Positions 26,009 to 32,073 of a stretch of DNA of 64,000 bases are shown one piece after another (position 1 is the stretch's first letter; each line of letters starts with the position of its first letter). Position numbers and translations under genes: made by a program. Below the pieces are notes generated by a model. The model had not been told where the DNA came from. It saw nothing but the letters and a program-made list of their open reading frames with translations, and searched no databases. The stretch is from Geothrix sp. 21YS21S-2 (GTDB taxonomy: Bacteria > Acidobacteriota > Holophagae > Holophagales > Holophagaceae): assembly GCF_030846775.1 (NCBI RefSeq), contig NZ_CP132910.1, forward strand, positions 4,901,001 through 4,965,000, read 5' to 3'.

Positions 26009-27076
26009 CTAGAGCTGTTCCTTCTTGCTTTCCAGGCTGTGGGGCTGGAAGGACTTCAGCTCGTTCACCACGTCCGAGAGCAGGGCCCGCTTCACCGCGT
26101 AGGGCAGGAAGGCGCTCTTGAAGCCCATGATGATGAGCTCCTTGATCTCGTCCAGGGTGAAGCCCATGGTCTCGTGCAGGTGGAGGTACTCCTCGCTGAC
26201 GGTGGTGCGGGTGACCATGCGGTTGTCGGTGTTCACCGTCACCCGCAGGCCGAGGTCGTAGAAGAGGCGGATCGGGTGCTCGGCCATGGTGCGCACGGCC
26301 CGGGTCTGCACGTTGGAGGAGGGGCAGCACTCCAGGGGGATGCGGTGGTCGTTCACGTAGTTGAGCAGGTCGCCGTTCTCGATGAGGCGAACGCCGTGGC
26401 CGATGCGGTGGGCGCCGCAGAGGTGGATGGCCTGGTGGATGCTCTCCGGCCCGTAGGCCTCCCCGGCGTGCAGGGTGCAGTTGATGTTGTTGGCCAGCAC
26501 GCGGCTGAAGGCCTCGCGGTGCTTCTTGGCGGGGAAGTCCTCCTCCGCGCCGGCCAGGTCGAAGCCCACGACGCCCTTGTTCTTGAAGGCGACGGTGAGG
26601 TCGGCCAGGCGATTGGACAGCTCGGGGCTGATGTGCCGGATGCCGCAGAGGATGACGCCGGTCTTGATGTTGAATTCCTTCTCCGCCTTGGCGAGGCCCT
26701 CCACGACCGCCTGCACGATGTGGTGCAGCGTCAGGCCCTTCTGCTGGTGGAGGATGGGGCTGTAGCGCACCTCCAGGTAGCGGACGTTCTCCGCCGCGGC
26801 GTCCTCGGCCAGTTCGTACGCCGTGCGCACCAGGGAGTCATAGGTCTGCATCACCGACAGGGTGACGTCGAAGGCCTTCAGGTAGTCCACCAGGGAGGTG
26901 CACTCCTCGCCCACTTCCACGAAGGGGCGCAGGGTCTCGAGGGTGTCGCCCGGCAAGGTCACGCCCTGCTCCTGGGCCAGCTCGAGGATGGTGGTGAGAC
27001 GCAGGCTGCCGTCCAGATGAACGTGCAGGTCGGTCTTGGGGAGGCGCTGGATGTCTTCGAGAGTGAGTTTTCGCAT
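26009..27076 (-). CDS. add: adenosine deaminase
   Basis: 355 residues; a zinc hydrolase converting adenosine to inosine. DLHVHLDGS (H18, H20), the HAGEAYGPESI region, HRIGHGVRL and the VNTDN Asp match the family; the last reads NTDNR instead of the usual NTDDP. It is the usual length. It sits 31 nt from its neighbours on both sides in a minus-strand run with nrnA and ribA. Confidence 0.93.
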   Translation of the reverse strand: MRKLTLEDIQRLPKTDLHVHLDGSLRLTTILELAQEQGVTLPGDTLETLRPFVEVGEECTSLVDYLKAFDVTLSVMQTYDSLVRTAYELAEDAAAENVRYLEVRYSPILHQQKGLTLHHIVQAVVEGLAKAEKEFNIKTGVILCGIRHISPELSNRLADLTVAFKNKGVVGFDLAGAEEDFPAKKHREAFSRVLANNINCTLHAGEAYGPESIHQAIHLCGAHRIGHGVRLIENGDLLNYVNDHRIPLECCPSSNVQTRAVRTMAEHPIRLFYDLGLRVTVNTDNRMVTRTTVSEEYLHLHETMGFTLDEIKELIIMGFKSAFLPYAVKRALLSDVVNELKSFQPHSLESKKEQL

Positions 27077-27107
27077 CCCTCAGTTTACCGGGCCAAACCG
27101 CTTTCTT

Positions 27108-27404
27108 CTATGCCTGATGGCGGGCCCCGAAGAGTTCGGCGAGGCTCAGCTCCGCCAGGAGCTCAAGGAGCCGTTCATCCTGGATCAGCATGGTCACCTT
27201 GACCTTGTCCCGGTTGACGAGCTTGACGAAGAAGCCGATGACCGAGGAGGGCATGGACAGGGACTCCCGGATGTGGAGGGTGAGGCTCGCGGCCCCGGCG
27301 GCGACCTGCTCGGTGACCAGCCTCCGGATCTCCAGGTAGTCGGCGGTCGTCTTGATGTTGCCCGTTATGGTCAACTCGGCCGGGCCCGTCCTTGCGATGT
27401 CCAT
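27108..27404 (-). CDS. STAS-type anti-sigma-factor antagonist-like protein
   Basis: 98 residues with the STAS build: beta strand ELTITGNI, helix, SLTLHIRESLSMPSSVIGFF and a C-terminal helix. The paired serines in MPSSVIG lie where SpoIIAA-type proteins carry the phosphorylated Ser. It is translated from a GGGAG site directly after the REC-PP2C-HATPase gene, whose kinase and phosphatase parts are its obvious partners. In this arrangement it resembles HsbA of the HsbR/HsbA pair of pseudomonads; this is inference from architecture. Confidence 0.8.
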   Translation of the reverse strand: MDIARTGPAELTITGNIKTTADYLEIRRLVTEQVAAGAASLTLHIRESLSMPSSVIGFFVKLVNRDKVKVTMLIQDERLLELLAELSLAELFGARHQA

Positions 27405-27408
27405 TGCG

Positions 27409-29097
27409 TCACTCCCGATAGAACTTGAGCAGTGTCAGGGTATTGCCTTGTTCATTGTAATGGAATGCGTCGGTGTACTTCCGGATCATCCTCAGGCCGC
27501 GGCCATGGAGCAGGAGGGAGTCCGGTTTCTCGAGCCGGGCCAGGGACGTCGCGAAGCCGGGGCCTTCGTCCTGGATGGTGACCGAAAGCAGGCGGTTCCC
27601 GCCCTCCCCGGTCAGGGCGAGGTCCACGGTGACGGGCGGGTGGGGGGAGGCCTCCCGCTCGAGAAGGTGGTCGAAGTAGAGTCCGCCTTCCAGAAGCTCG
27701 GCCTTGAGGTGGCCGGGGATCCCCAGGGAGCCGTGTTCGTAGGCGTTCAGAAGGGCCTCCCGGATGGCGACGCTGAACTCGTACCGGGGTTCCGCGGCCA
27801 GGGCCGTGCGGGTCTCCAGGCACTTCTCCAGCTCCTGGCAGGCCTCCTCCACGCGTTCCAGGCGGCTCTCCACGGTCATGTGGCGCTGCCAGAGGGGCTC
27901 GGAATCCACCCGGGTGAGGAAGAGCAGGGTCACGTCGTCCTCCGGACTGGGCACCAGCTTCCGGAAGGATTCCAGGAATGCCGCCCGGCCTGCCTGTTCC
28001 CTGAAATCGGGCTCCAGGCGGCTCCGGTAGAGCCCGCCCTCCGGCGTCCCGGCCTCGTTGAGGCCGTCGGTGTAGAGAAGGATGCGGCGGGTGTCGCCCA
28101 GGTTGTGGGCCCGGGTGCTGAAGTCGGTGGTGTAGGGCGAGAGGGGCGGGTTGTTGCAGGGCAGCTTGCGGGGGCCGTCCCCGCCTTCCAACAGCATCGG
28201 GGGCATGCCGAAGGAGGCGAGCTCCAGCAGGGCCCGCTTGCAGGGGAGCCAGACCAGCGCGAGGCTGAGCACCTCGTCCTCCAGGAGGCGCCGCCCGATC
28301 ATGGTGATGAATTCCCGCACGAACTCCCCGAGGCTGAACAGGCTGCCCGGCGCCAGGCGGTCCACCTGGAGGTTGAAGGTGTAGACGGCCAGCGAGGTGG
28401 TGAGGGCGGCCGAGAGGCCCTTGCCCATGGCGTCGGCGAGGAACACCAGCATGCTCCCGTCCGGAAGGCGCCGCAGGGAGTAGCTGTCCCCGCACATGAT
28501 GTCCTTGGGCAGGTAGGCGACCTCGGCGATCCACTCCCCGCGGCCCGGGGGGCCCGTGAAGGACCGGCCCTGGAAGTCGTTCTCCAGGATGCTCAGCTCC
28601 TTCCGGAAGGCCATCTCCTGCTGGTTCTCATGGTAGCGCTCCCGCAGCTGGAGGAGCGCCAAGTCCTGCTCCATGGTCCTGCGCTGGAGGTGGTCGTGCT
28701 CGAGCAGCCCCACCACCAGGGAGAAGGCCTGGACAAGGTTCTCCGGCACCACGGGCTTGGGGAGGATGGAGGCGATGCCCAGGCCGATGACCTGCCCCAG
28801 GAGCGCATTGTTCATGGACTCGGTGATGAAGATGATGGGGACCTTCGAACCGCCCTTCCGGATCTCCGCGGCCATGTCCAGGCCCGTCATGCCGGGCATG
28901 TGATGGTCCGTGAGGATGATGTCCGGCGCCTTGGCCCGCCATGCCGCCAGGCCCTCGCGGCCGTCCCTGGCCTGGAAGACCTCCTTGAAGAGGCCCCGCA
29001 TGCGCGCGGCCATCGCCATCCGGCTGGGGCCGTCGTCCTCCACGTAGAGGACGGTGAGCTCGCTGCAGTAGGGGCTTAGGTGGTCCCGGAGCGCCAC
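27409..29097 (-). CDS. REC-PP2C-HATPase partner-switch regulator (HsbR-like)
   Basis: 562 residues from a GTG at 29097 that overlaps the chemoreceptor stop by 1 nt (TAGTG). A receiver domain (1-130, VEDD at 19-22, phospho-acceptor D64 in LTDHHMPG) comes first. A PP2C phosphatase domain (about 185-380, MCGDSYSLRR, ADAMGKGLSAA, YTDGLNEAG) is next. A C-terminal RsbW-type kinase domain has EALLNAYEHGS, DEGPGF and GRGLRMIR. One protein thus carries both a phosphatase and a kinase for a STAS substrate, switched by receiver phosphorylation. The next gene is that STAS protein; the preceding one is a chemoreceptor. Confidence 0.9.
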   Translation of the reverse strand: MALRDHLSPYCSELTVLYVEDDGPSRMAMAARMRGLFKEVFQARDGREGLAAWRAKAPDIILTDHHMPGMTGLDMAAEIRKGGSKVPIIFITESMNNALLGQVIGLGIASILPKPVVPENLVQAFSLVVGLLEHDHLQRRTMEQDLALLQLRERYHENQQEMAFRKELSILENDFQGRSFTGPPGRGEWIAEVAYLPKDIMCGDSYSLRRLPDGSMLVFLADAMGKGLSAALTTSLAVYTFNLQVDRLAPGSLFSLGEFVREFITMIGRRLLEDEVLSLALVWLPCKRALLELASFGMPPMLLEGGDGPRKLPCNNPPLSPYTTDFSTRAHNLGDTRRILLYTDGLNEAGTPEGGLYRSRLEPDFREQAGRAAFLESFRKLVPSPEDDVTLLFLTRVDSEPLWQRHMTVESRLERVEEACQELEKCLETRTALAAEPRYEFSVAIREALLNAYEHGSLGIPGHLKAELLEGGLYFDHLLEREASPHPPVTVDLALTGEGGNRLLSVTIQDEGPGFATSLARLEKPDSLLLHGRGLRMIRKYTDAFHYNEQGNTLTLLKFYRE

Positions 29098-30332
29098 TAT
29101 TCCACCCGGAAGTGGCTCAGGGAACTGCGGAGGTCCTCGGACTTCGCGGCGAGGTTCGTGGAGACCGCCTCCACCCCGTGGGCGGCGTCCTTGTTCTGGT
29201 TGGAGAGGTCCACCAGGCTGTTCATGGTCTCGATGAGGTCCTTGGTGCGGGTGGCGATGTAGGTGGTCTTGCGCACCAGGTCCGAGGAGGTGGCCACGGA
29301 GTCCCTGAGCTTGGTGCCGGTGGTGCCGGCGTCCTCCAGGAGGCTGCGGGTGCGGTCGGACACGCTCACCATCTGGAGCGAGGCCCGGTCCGTCTCCGTG
29401 CACATGGCCTCGATGCCGTCCACGACCTCCTTGACGTTGATGTTGATCTCCACGAGCGAGCCCTGGGTCTTCGCGGCCAGCTTGCGGATCTCCTCGGCCA
29501 CCACCGCGAAGCCCTTGCCGGCCTCCCGCGCGTGGGCCGCCTCGATGGAGGCGTTCAGGGCCAGCAGGTTGGTCTGGTTGGCGATCTCGGCGATGATGCC
29601 CAGCACGCTGTTGATGCCCTGGGCGTCCTCGCTCAGCTCGCGCATCCGGGTCGCCATGCGGGACTGCTTCTCTCCTTCGGCGATGACCACGCCCCCCACC
29701 TCCGTGAGGGTGGCCACGAAGGCCGCCAGGACCTTCTCGGTGGATTCCAGGGTCTCGGTGGTGGTGATGGACATCTCCTCGGTGACGTCGAGGTTGCGCG
29801 CCACGTCGGTCATGAGGTTGGAGCTGTTCTCGGCGAGCTCGCACTGGCTCGAGACGTTGCCGGCCAGCTCCCGGGAGATGGCGGAGAGCTCGTTGCTGGA
29901 GGCCGCCGTCTCGTTGGCGGTGGCCACGGAGTGGGCCACGGTGGCGTGGGCCTTGTGGATGAACGTGTTGATGAAGCCCGCCAGCTGGCTGAGTTCGTCG
30001 GCGCCCGCGATGGTGATGCGCTGGGTGAGGTCGCCCTCGCCTTCGGCCAGGTCATGCATGCGCCGGGTGATCAGCGTGAGGGAGGAATTGATGCTCATGC
30101 TGATGATCAGGCCCACCCCCGCGCCGCACACGATGAAGAAGGCCAGCAGGGCCAGGGTCACGCGCATGGCCTCGGCGGCCACGATCCGGTTCGCCGCGAC
30201 GTCGCCGTGGGTGGCCTCCATGGCCCGGAGGTAGTAGACGCCGGCCGCTCCGAGACACACGAGCGCGAGGCTGCATCCGAGGATGATGACCAGCAGGCGC
30301 GTACGGATCTTCAGGAGCTTGAGCAGGTTCAT
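29097..30332 (-). CDS. methyl-accepting chemotaxis protein without a large sensor domain
   Basis: 411 residues from the ATG at 30332, with GGAGGAAAG upstream; an upstream ATG at 30389 has no ribosome site. Two membrane helices (about 9-29 and 57-78) are separated by only about 30 residues, so there is almost no periplasmic sensor. HAMP-like sequence and the signalling hairpin with its conserved tip ([30 protein letters not shown]) follow. No che genes are in the window. Transcriptional coupling to the REC-PP2C-HATPase gene suggests a link to that partner switch rather than to flagella. Confidence 0.9.
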
Positions 30333-30395
30333 CTTTCCTCCACACCAAGGCCGGCCCGGATGACCTTCCCGGGCCCTATTATTCTGCACGATTCC

Positions 30396-30905
30396 CTAGG
30401 TATGGATCTGCGCGACCTTCGTGCGGATGGCGTTCTCGTCCGTCTTGTCCACGCAGTCGATGCACAGGCCGAAGATCTGCAGGCTGTGATGCAGGGGCTT
30501 GAACTTCCGCTCCTGGCAGATGGCGTCCTGGAGCGTCTCCAGGTCGGCGCGGTAGAACTCGAAGACCTTGTTGCAGGCCAGGCAGATCAGGTGATCATGA
30601 TGCTCATTCTCATGCGCCGCTTCGTAGTTGGCGTGGCTCGAGCCCAGGCTGCTCTTGCGCACGAGACCGCATTGCACCAGGAGATCCAAGGTGCGGTACA
30701 CGGTGGCGCGGCTGATATCGCGTCCCAGTGTCTTGAGTTCCGCGTGGAGTTCCTCGGCATCGAAGTGGCTGTCCTTGCGGAAGATGGTCGCGAGGATCTC
30801 CATCCGCTCGCCCGTCAGTTTGAGCTTCTTGCTCCGGAGATAGGCCTCGAAACGATGGGCTTCCGTGGAAGGAGCTCGGGTGGGCAGCGTCTGGTTAGGG
30901 GACAT
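30396..30905 (-). CDS. Fur-family transcriptional regulator
   Basis: 169 residues. The winged helix has LTGERMEILATIF and SRATVYRTLDLLVQCGLV, and the dimerisation part has HENEHHDHLICLACNKVFEF. Structural zinc Cys pairs are CLAC and CIDC. Whether it senses iron, peroxide or zinc cannot be read with certainty; the HHDH.IC.AC pattern is Fur-like. It is divergent from the tautomerase-winged-helix gene across a 103-nt AT-rich region that may hold its operator. Confidence 0.93.
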   Translation of the reverse strand: MSPNQTLPTRAPSTEAHRFEAYLRSKKLKLTGERMEILATIFRKDSHFDAEELHAELKTLGRDISRATVYRTLDLLVQCGLVRKSSLGSSHANYEAAHENEHHDHLICLACNKVFEFYRADLETLQDAICQERKFKPLHHSLQIFGLCIDCVDKTDENAIRTKVAQIHT

Positions 30906-30959
30906 GGATACTCCCAGAGTGGAAAAGTCGTTAAAGGGATCAAAAAGAATTCCCCCTCA

Positions 30960-30982
30960 TTCATAATACAGATTAAATTGAA
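30960..30982. promoter_or_regulatory. AT-rich inverted repeat, possible Fur-family operator
   Basis: Within the divergent 30906-31008 intergenic region, TTCATAAT starting at 30960 is mirrored imperfectly by ATTAAATTGAA ending at 30982. Size (23 nt) and AT-richness are like Fur/PerR boxes. CATAAT at 30962-30967 could also be a -10 box for the plus-strand gene. Confidence 0.35.
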
Positions 30983-31008
30983 ATCACCCCCGTTTTAAAG
31001 GAGTGTGT

Positions 31009-31575
31009 ATGCCTTTGATACACATCAAATCCAACCCCCTTTCAAAAGAACAGAAAAAGAGAATCGGCGACCGAATCATCGAGGCGTTCCACGGTGAGGG
31101 CATCCCGCCGAGCTCCGTCGTGGTCCTTTTTGGACGCGAGGAAGCCGATATATTGCTAGACGGAGGGTTACTATTCGAGGTCAACGGCGCGAAGCAGGAA
31201 GTCCCGGCCCCCAGGCCGGCCCCCGCGCCCCCCGCGCCGATGGTGTTCGAGAAGGACATCCTTCCTGATTTCAAGAACAAGCTCAGGCGGTCCAAGGGCG
31301 AGCTGCTGGCCCTCAAGGCCCAGCTCATCAAGACCCTCCAGCTCCAGGGGGCCCTGAGCAGCTTCCAGGCCCAGGAGGAACTGGGACTCAAGACCTGCGA
31401 CTGGGCACCGGCGACGCTCAGGCGGTTTTTTTCTGAGTTGGAGGACGAGGGCGTCATCCTCAAGCAGGGCCAGAAGCGGGGCACCCGCTATGTGTGGAAG
31501 GGCATGTCCAGCCAGCCCGTCCACGGGTCCCCCCGCCTCGTGAAGCGGGGCGATGACGAGCCCGCCGGGAACTGA
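31009..31575 (+). CDS. tautomerase-like domain fused to a winged-helix domain
   Basis: 188 residues from the ATG at 31009, with AAGGAG 5 nt upstream. Residues 1-60 look like a 4-oxalocrotonate tautomerase monomer: MPLIHIKSNPLSKEQKKR start with Pro2 (the catalytic Pro1 after Met removal), a helix, then IPPSSVVVLFGREEAD and a GG turn. A Pro/Ala linker (about 66-80) leads to a helical and winged-helix C-terminus (APATLRRFFSELEDEGVI, GTRYVWKG). The fusion is unusual to my knowledge. Its divergence from Fur and proximity to DUF421 hint at a stress or redox regulator. Function is unproven. Confidence 0.75.
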   Translation: MPLIHIKSNPLSKEQKKRIGDRIIEAFHGEGIPPSSVVVLFGREEADILLDGGLLFEVNGAKQEVPAPRPAPAPPAPMVFEKDILPDFKNKLRRSKGELLALKAQLIKTLQLQGALSSFQAQEELGLKTCDWAPATLRRFFSELEDEGVILKQGQKRGTRYVWKGMSSQPVHGSPRLVKRGDDEPAGN

Positions 31576-31578
31576 TCC

Positions 31579-32073
31579 ATGACCGCCCTGCCCGTGGGCG
31601 TGAGCCTCTGGAAGCTCGGTCAGCCCTGGTGGGAGTTCGCCCTCCGGGCCGTCCTGGTCTACGGCTTCCTCCTGGTGATCCTCCGTCTCACCGGCAAGCG
31701 CCAGGTGGGCCAGCTCTCGCCCTTCGACCTGGTGCTGCTCCTGATCCTGTCCAACGCCGTGCAGAACAGCATGAACGCCGGCGACAACACGGTGGCCGCG
31801 GGGTTCATCCTGGCCGGGACCCTGGTGGGGCTCAATTCCCTGGTGAGCTGGCTCACCTACCGCAGCAAGAAGGTGCAGAGGTTCGTGGAAGGCAACCCGC
31901 TGGTGCTCGTGCACAACGGGAAGATCCTCCAGTCCGTCCTGGATTCGGAGGAGGTCACGCAGCACGAGCTGATGGCCGCCCTGCGCGCCGCGGGCCTGAG
32001 CAGCCTGGAGGAGGTCCACGTGGCCATCCTGGAGACCAACGGGCACATCAGCGTGATACCCAAGCCGACCTGA
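31579..32073 (+). CDS. DUF421 (YetF/YcaP-like) membrane protein
   Basis: 164 residues. Three N-terminal hydrophobic segments (FALRAVLVYGFLLVIL, FDLVLLLILSNAVQN, AAGFILAGTLVGLNSLV) precede a soluble domain with KKVQRFVEGNPLVLVHNGKI, typical of DUF421. The family is membrane-bound and of unknown function. The ATG is 3 nt after the tautomerase-fusion stop, so the two are co-transcribed. Confidence 0.9.
   Translation: MTALPVGVSLWKLGQPWWEFALRAVLVYGFLLVILRLTGKRQVGQLSPFDLVLLLILSNAVQNSMNAGDNTVAAGFILAGTLVGLNSLVSWLTYRSKKVQRFVEGNPLVLVHNGKILQSVLDSEEVTQHELMAALRAAGLSSLEEVHVAILETNGHISVIPKPT

Follow-up and report, generated by a model that had tools for sequence, protein, structure and literature searches.

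A tautomerase-like domain fused to a predicted winged helix in Holophagaceae: a candidate regulator encoded divergently from fur

Examination of a 64,000-nucleotide stretch of the genome of Geothrix sp. 21YS21S-2 (NCBI RefSeq assembly GCF_030846775.1, a single contig of 5.25 Mb, NZ_CP132910.1, positions 4,901,001 to 4,965,000 of the forward strand; this whole stretch is referred to as the window, and coordinates are given within it) revealed a gene encoding a protein in which a tautomerase-like domain is followed by a linker and a predicted winged helix. The open reading frame starts with the ATG at 31009 and its stop codon ends at 31575; it is preceded by AAAGGAG, a good ribosome-binding site, and the start methionine is shared by the orthologues. 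An earlier annotation made by a model from the nucleotides alone (the sequence-only reading) had proposed this gene of 188 residues, and it is a real one, a chance open reading frame being ruled out by conservation and by the ratio of nonsynonymous to synonymous substitution rates (dN/dS). The parts of the gene and its neighbours are as follows.

31009..31575, + strand: fusion protein of 188 aa, composed of tautomerase-like domain, linker and winged helix (open reading frame and translation; orthologues in 53 genomes)
31009..31179, + strand: tautomerase-like domain, residues 1-57, with predicted strand 3-8, helix 13-29 and strand 38-43 (profile-profile alignment to canonical 4-oxalocrotonate tautomerase, 4-OT; Foldseek probability 0.9-1.00 to DmpI and 4-OT; AlphaFold2, AF2)
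31180..31269, + strand: variable Ala/Pro-rich linker, residues 58-87, of 23-36 aa in orthologues (entropy 2.56 bits; raised dN/dS)
31270..31503, + strand: winged helix, residues 88-165, with predicted helices 96-113, 118-124 and 133-146 and a wing with invariant G-x-K-R-G-T (AF2 domain model; structural matches with Z about 10; invariant residues)
31504..31572, + strand: C-terminal tail with a conserved LVK at residues 177-179 (alignment column counts)
30906..31008, no strand: upstream region of 103 bp shared by the divergent Fur gene and the fusion gene, a candidate operator region (divergent pair kept in most loci)
30396..30905, - strand: Fur-family regulator, divergent neighbour (Pfam FUR 1.2e-33; conserved as neighbour)
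31579..32073, + strand: DUF421/YetF-like protein of 164 aa, downstream, not a conserved partner (Pfam DUF421 7.8e-19, a weak match to the N-terminal membrane part)

The fusion was detected in 53 of the 61 sampled Holophagaceae genomes, and was absent from 39 other relatives searched outside this family. A full-protein profile run against 396 Acidobacteriota genomes likewise returned the fusion in Holophagaceae only, with weak partial matches beyond it, and the named relatives carrying the protein are Holophagaceae and Geothrix. No relatives were found in plasmid and phage records; a scan of 84,980 species with peptide patterns detects close relatives only, which gives a shallow coverage of fusions in other phyla. 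The gene tree mostly tracks genera, so that the gene has been passed on mainly vertically. In 14 close pairs, dN/dS was 0.064 for the N-terminal domain, 0.059 for the C-terminal domain and 0.385 for the linker; both domains are thus under strong purifying selection and the linker far less so, so that two constrained domains are loosely tethered to each other.

Regarding the N-terminal domain, single-sequence scans gave matches to NCBIfam DmpI (7e-4) and to Pfam Tautomerase_3 (0.013) and Tautomerase (0.043), all of them sub-threshold. Alignment with hhalign of a profile of 49 orthologues to canonical tautomerases of the same phylum gave a probability of 95.2% over 50 columns, compared with 18.8% for the best of 200 column-shuffled profiles; the probability was 93% when only rows lacking Pro2 were used and 92% after removal of the tautomerase found by the N-domain profile itself. 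That profile, searched against 297 genomes, had as its top match beyond Holophagaceae a canonical tautomerase of 68 aa from another Acidobacteriota genome. The full-length AF2 model (4 sequences) is of low confidence, with a mean predicted local distance difference test score (pLDDT) of 56.5, and residues 1-40 score 69-78 and form a strand-helix-strand; strand 1, helix 1 and strand 2 are the only well-modelled elements of the domain. The best structural matches of this half are DmpI, 4-OT and CaaD (Foldseek E about 0.06-0.3, probability up to 1.00, Z about 6), which are supportive, not decisive alone. Single-sequence matches below curated cut-offs and a poorly modelled far end are what would be seen if the similarity were due to chance and the domain were another small fold; the controlled profile-profile and fold results make this highly improbable. 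By profile and predicted fold, the N-terminal domain is homologous to 4-OT and forms the beta-alpha-beta unit that is required of the tautomerase superfamily, in which nearly all members consist of one or two such units (PMC5818174; J Biol Chem 2017). It resembles 4-OT and DmpI in the length and order of strand, helix and strand, in an EQK helix start and in a Gly-Gly turn, all detectable in profile and fold, and unlike them it is fused to a winged helix.

The residues expected of an active enzyme are not a trait of this family. Catalytic superfamily members have an N-terminal proline after removal of the initiator methionine; the sequence-only reading had reported Pro2 as kept, which is correct for the window protein and does not hold for its orthologues, Pro2 being present in 10 of 49 (short paralogues excluded). 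Across 51 sequences residue 2 is Ala in 35, Pro in 12, Ser in three and Thr in one. When 4-OT numbering was mapped through aligned canonical members and the catalytic residues named in PMC5818174, the position of Arg-11 was found to be Leu in 50 of 51 sequences and that of Arg-39 (aligned position 38) Val in 45 of 51, so that the two active-site arginines of 4-OT are lacking. A trigger enzyme, that is, an active tautomerase joined to a regulator, would be consistent with Pro2 in the window protein and in a minority of orthologues, and with the fact that residue 2 is small (Ala, Pro, Ser or Thr) in all 51 sequences, so that this residue would become the free N-terminus once methionine is removed; with both catalytic arginines absent and the tree requiring five or more switches between Pro and non-Pro at residue 2, it is very unlikely. 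Since Pro2 is not conserved and the catalytic arginine positions carry Leu and Val, the tautomerase domain has been retained, probably with its enzyme activity lost; its role in a transcription factor is most likely to oligomerise or to bind a ligand, not to catalyse a reaction.

Many winged-helix regulators sense a ligand to change their affinity for DNA. The protein could likewise be an effector-sensing one-component regulator, with the old active site serving as a pocket for a ligand (for example a 2-oxo acid or an aromatic metabolite) that alters DNA affinity. The strong constraint on the N-terminal domain agrees with this, as do near-invariant residues of its own, unlike those of canonical tautomerases (Q15, K16, R18, G20, G31, D47 and D51-G52); with Leu and Val in place of the arginines by which 4-OT binds its substrate, and a gene context that links no ligand or pathway, this form of the regulator is possible but doubtful.

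Tautomerase-family proteins lacking Pro-1 have been described before: 346 such sequences have been reported, 294 of them in the MSAD subgroup and keeping other active-site residues, and it was suggested that some may be regulatory proteins (PMC5818174). They share the fold family of the protein studied here, and the residues that replace the proline in them include Ala and Ser; they are mostly MSAD members and were not described as fusions to DNA-binding domains, unlike the window protein. A 4OT-SnoaL fusion of 186 aa (PDB 9mua) also has a 4-OT unit followed by an unrelated second domain, which is SnoaL-like there and a winged helix here.

Regarding the C-terminal domain, single-sequence scans gave winged-helix families at around 0.2, also sub-threshold. 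The AF2 model of this domain alone (5 sequences) has a mean pLDDT of 79.8, with the core at about 90, and predicts a winged helix at residues 96-165 with the elements in the order H1-S1-H2-H3-S2-wing-S3, which is the topology of that fold. Its structural matches are all winged helices, namely AntR, PerR, LmrR, TtgV, MecI and Zalpha (Z 9-10, identity 12-20%). Hardly any variation is seen in the third (recognition) helix or in the wing GQKRGTRY. The domain has a basic median isoelectric point of 9.7, versus 5.0 in the N-terminal domain; a basic domain with invariant wing Lys and Arg is only suggestive of DNA binding. Repressors of the BlaI/MecI (Penicillinase_R), MarR, ArsR and Fur/PerR families have the same topology (Z about 9-10), and weak Pfam Penicillinase_R matches were obtained for 8 of 17 orthologues, the window protein scoring 12.4 bits against a cut-off of 22.6. 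It differs from these repressors in its low identity to them (12-20%) and in the C-terminal location of its winged helix after a long linker, and their dimerisation domains were not seen. Both halves of the protein are thus predicted much as the sequence-only reading had drawn them, with a tautomerase layout at the N-terminus and a DNA-binding type of winged helix at the C-terminus: a tautomerase fold is predicted in residues 1-60, of which 45-60 belong to a low-confidence part of the model, a winged helix is predicted in the 100-188 half, and the fusion, whose conservation in orthologues it had proposed to check, is widely conserved within Holophagaceae.

Elsewhere in the Acidobacteriota, weak matches of the C-terminal domain come from other kinds of protein that end in a winged helix (for example a Fic-like one, by eye), not from such fusions. 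In a Fic-like protein (by eye; L058, G360:C198) the wing of the C-terminal winged helix reads GQRRGTRY, similar to that of the fusion protein; this motif is found in unrelated proteins.

The divergent fur gene, noted as a neighbour from the outset, adjoins the fusion gene in 45 of 48 loci, the other three being one contig end and two genomes without detectable fur. The conserved back-to-back position suggests that the fusion protein may control itself and/or fur. The 17-mer ATAATACAGATTAAATT, conserved in the closest relatives, was rejected as a genome-wide operator, having just one other site, with 3 mismatches, and no Rfam match indicative of an RNA element was obtained in the region. The winged helix might instead bind RNA, the ribosome or a protein, or bind DNA without sequence preference in the manner of a nucleoid-type protein, as could be argued from the lack of any specific operator in the searches made and from the presence of SelB winged helices with RNA, ribosomal proteins and cullin WHB domains among the structural matches; the nearest bacterial matches are, however, operator-binding repressors, and such a divergent placement beside fur is what is typically seen for regulators, which makes such a role unlikely.

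The reading favoured here, to which we assign a probability of a little under 60%, is that the fusion protein is a Holophagaceae-wide winged-helix transcription factor in which an N-terminal pseudo-tautomerase without catalytic residues assembles copies, and that it likely acts at least on the fur/fusion intergenic region. The C-terminal winged helix would bind DNA, and the tautomerase-fold domain, its catalytic residues lost, would assemble several copies and so join several winged helices via flexible linkers; this domain may retain an effector pocket, and the protein would control its own gene and/or fur from the shared region. Tautomerases form hexamers or trimers. The analysis establishes the two domains, the selection acting on them, the missing catalytic residues and the preserved neighbouring gene; DNA binding, assembly into multimers, the target and autoregulation are inferences.

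Several observations weigh against this transcription-factor reading. Residues 45-68 of the N-terminal domain, after strand 2, have pLDDT values below 50 in the single-chain AF2 model, and we therefore infer oligomerisation from family membership only. Binding of RNA or protein by winged helices is also known. In genus g8 three genomes have fur and no fusion gene, so that fur does not depend on the fusion gene, and in genus g2 two genomes have the fusion gene and no detectable fur; the link to fur is not obligatory. No operator was detected in the shared region: the best matches to the Fur box TGATAATNATTATCA were no better than those of shuffles, though a different site may serve Fur in this lineage, and a simple scan for a promoter of the sigma-70 type found none.

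The use of enzyme-derived domains in one-component regulators is a known kind of arrangement (MocR, ROK, UTRA). The open-access literature yielded nothing relevant on a tautomerase fused to a winged helix, a helix-turn-helix or a DNA-binding domain, and papers elsewhere are possible. The protein would thus combine known parts in a new way, as a one-component regulator with an undescribed sensor or scaffold, and is probably a gene regulator of undescribed design. We consider it slightly better than an even chance that a catalysis-stripped tautomerase fold here serves a transcription factor for sensing or assembly, a lineage of the superfamily thus acting in regulation, not catalysis, and partnered with Fur across a bacterial family. 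It is a concrete candidate for the regulatory proteins without Pro-1 suggested in PMC5818174, and a compact, vertically inherited case in which a DNA-binding-type domain is attached and the likely target region lies next to the gene. If the proposal is true, the regulator modules derived from enzyme folds would gain a new scaffold, and Holophagaceae would have a candidate regulator tied to Fur. Members of this family such as Geothrix are known for iron reduction.

Regarding the remaining neighbours, in most of these loci fur is followed by a gene for adenosine deaminase. In the part of the window that holds adenosine deaminase and fur (26009-30905), a chemotaxis-type receptor and RsbU/STAS-like genes stand between the two, which are neighbours across Holophagaceae. 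The DUF421 gene, which had been assigned to the same operon, does begin 3 bases past the fusion gene in the window; it adjoins the fusion gene in the closest relatives only, and was rejected as a conserved operon partner. No defence system was matched by PADLOC.

Two genomes of genus g9 (G021 and G013; L049 and L050) carry a diverged short paralogue of 147-154 aa with a shortened N-terminal domain that keeps Pro2 and with an altered wing; in G013 it sits between amt-glnK-like and rpsF-like genes. A relative with 43% identity (L079:3001-3510) is encoded on a 96-kb IMG/VR contig, flanked by an HTH_3 protein and a SocA/Panacea antitoxin-like open reading frame. Within open reading frames of the same contig (L079:4238-5700) the short repeat GPSSSSLITVGGGGGV recurs in both orientations, resembling an inserted repeat element.
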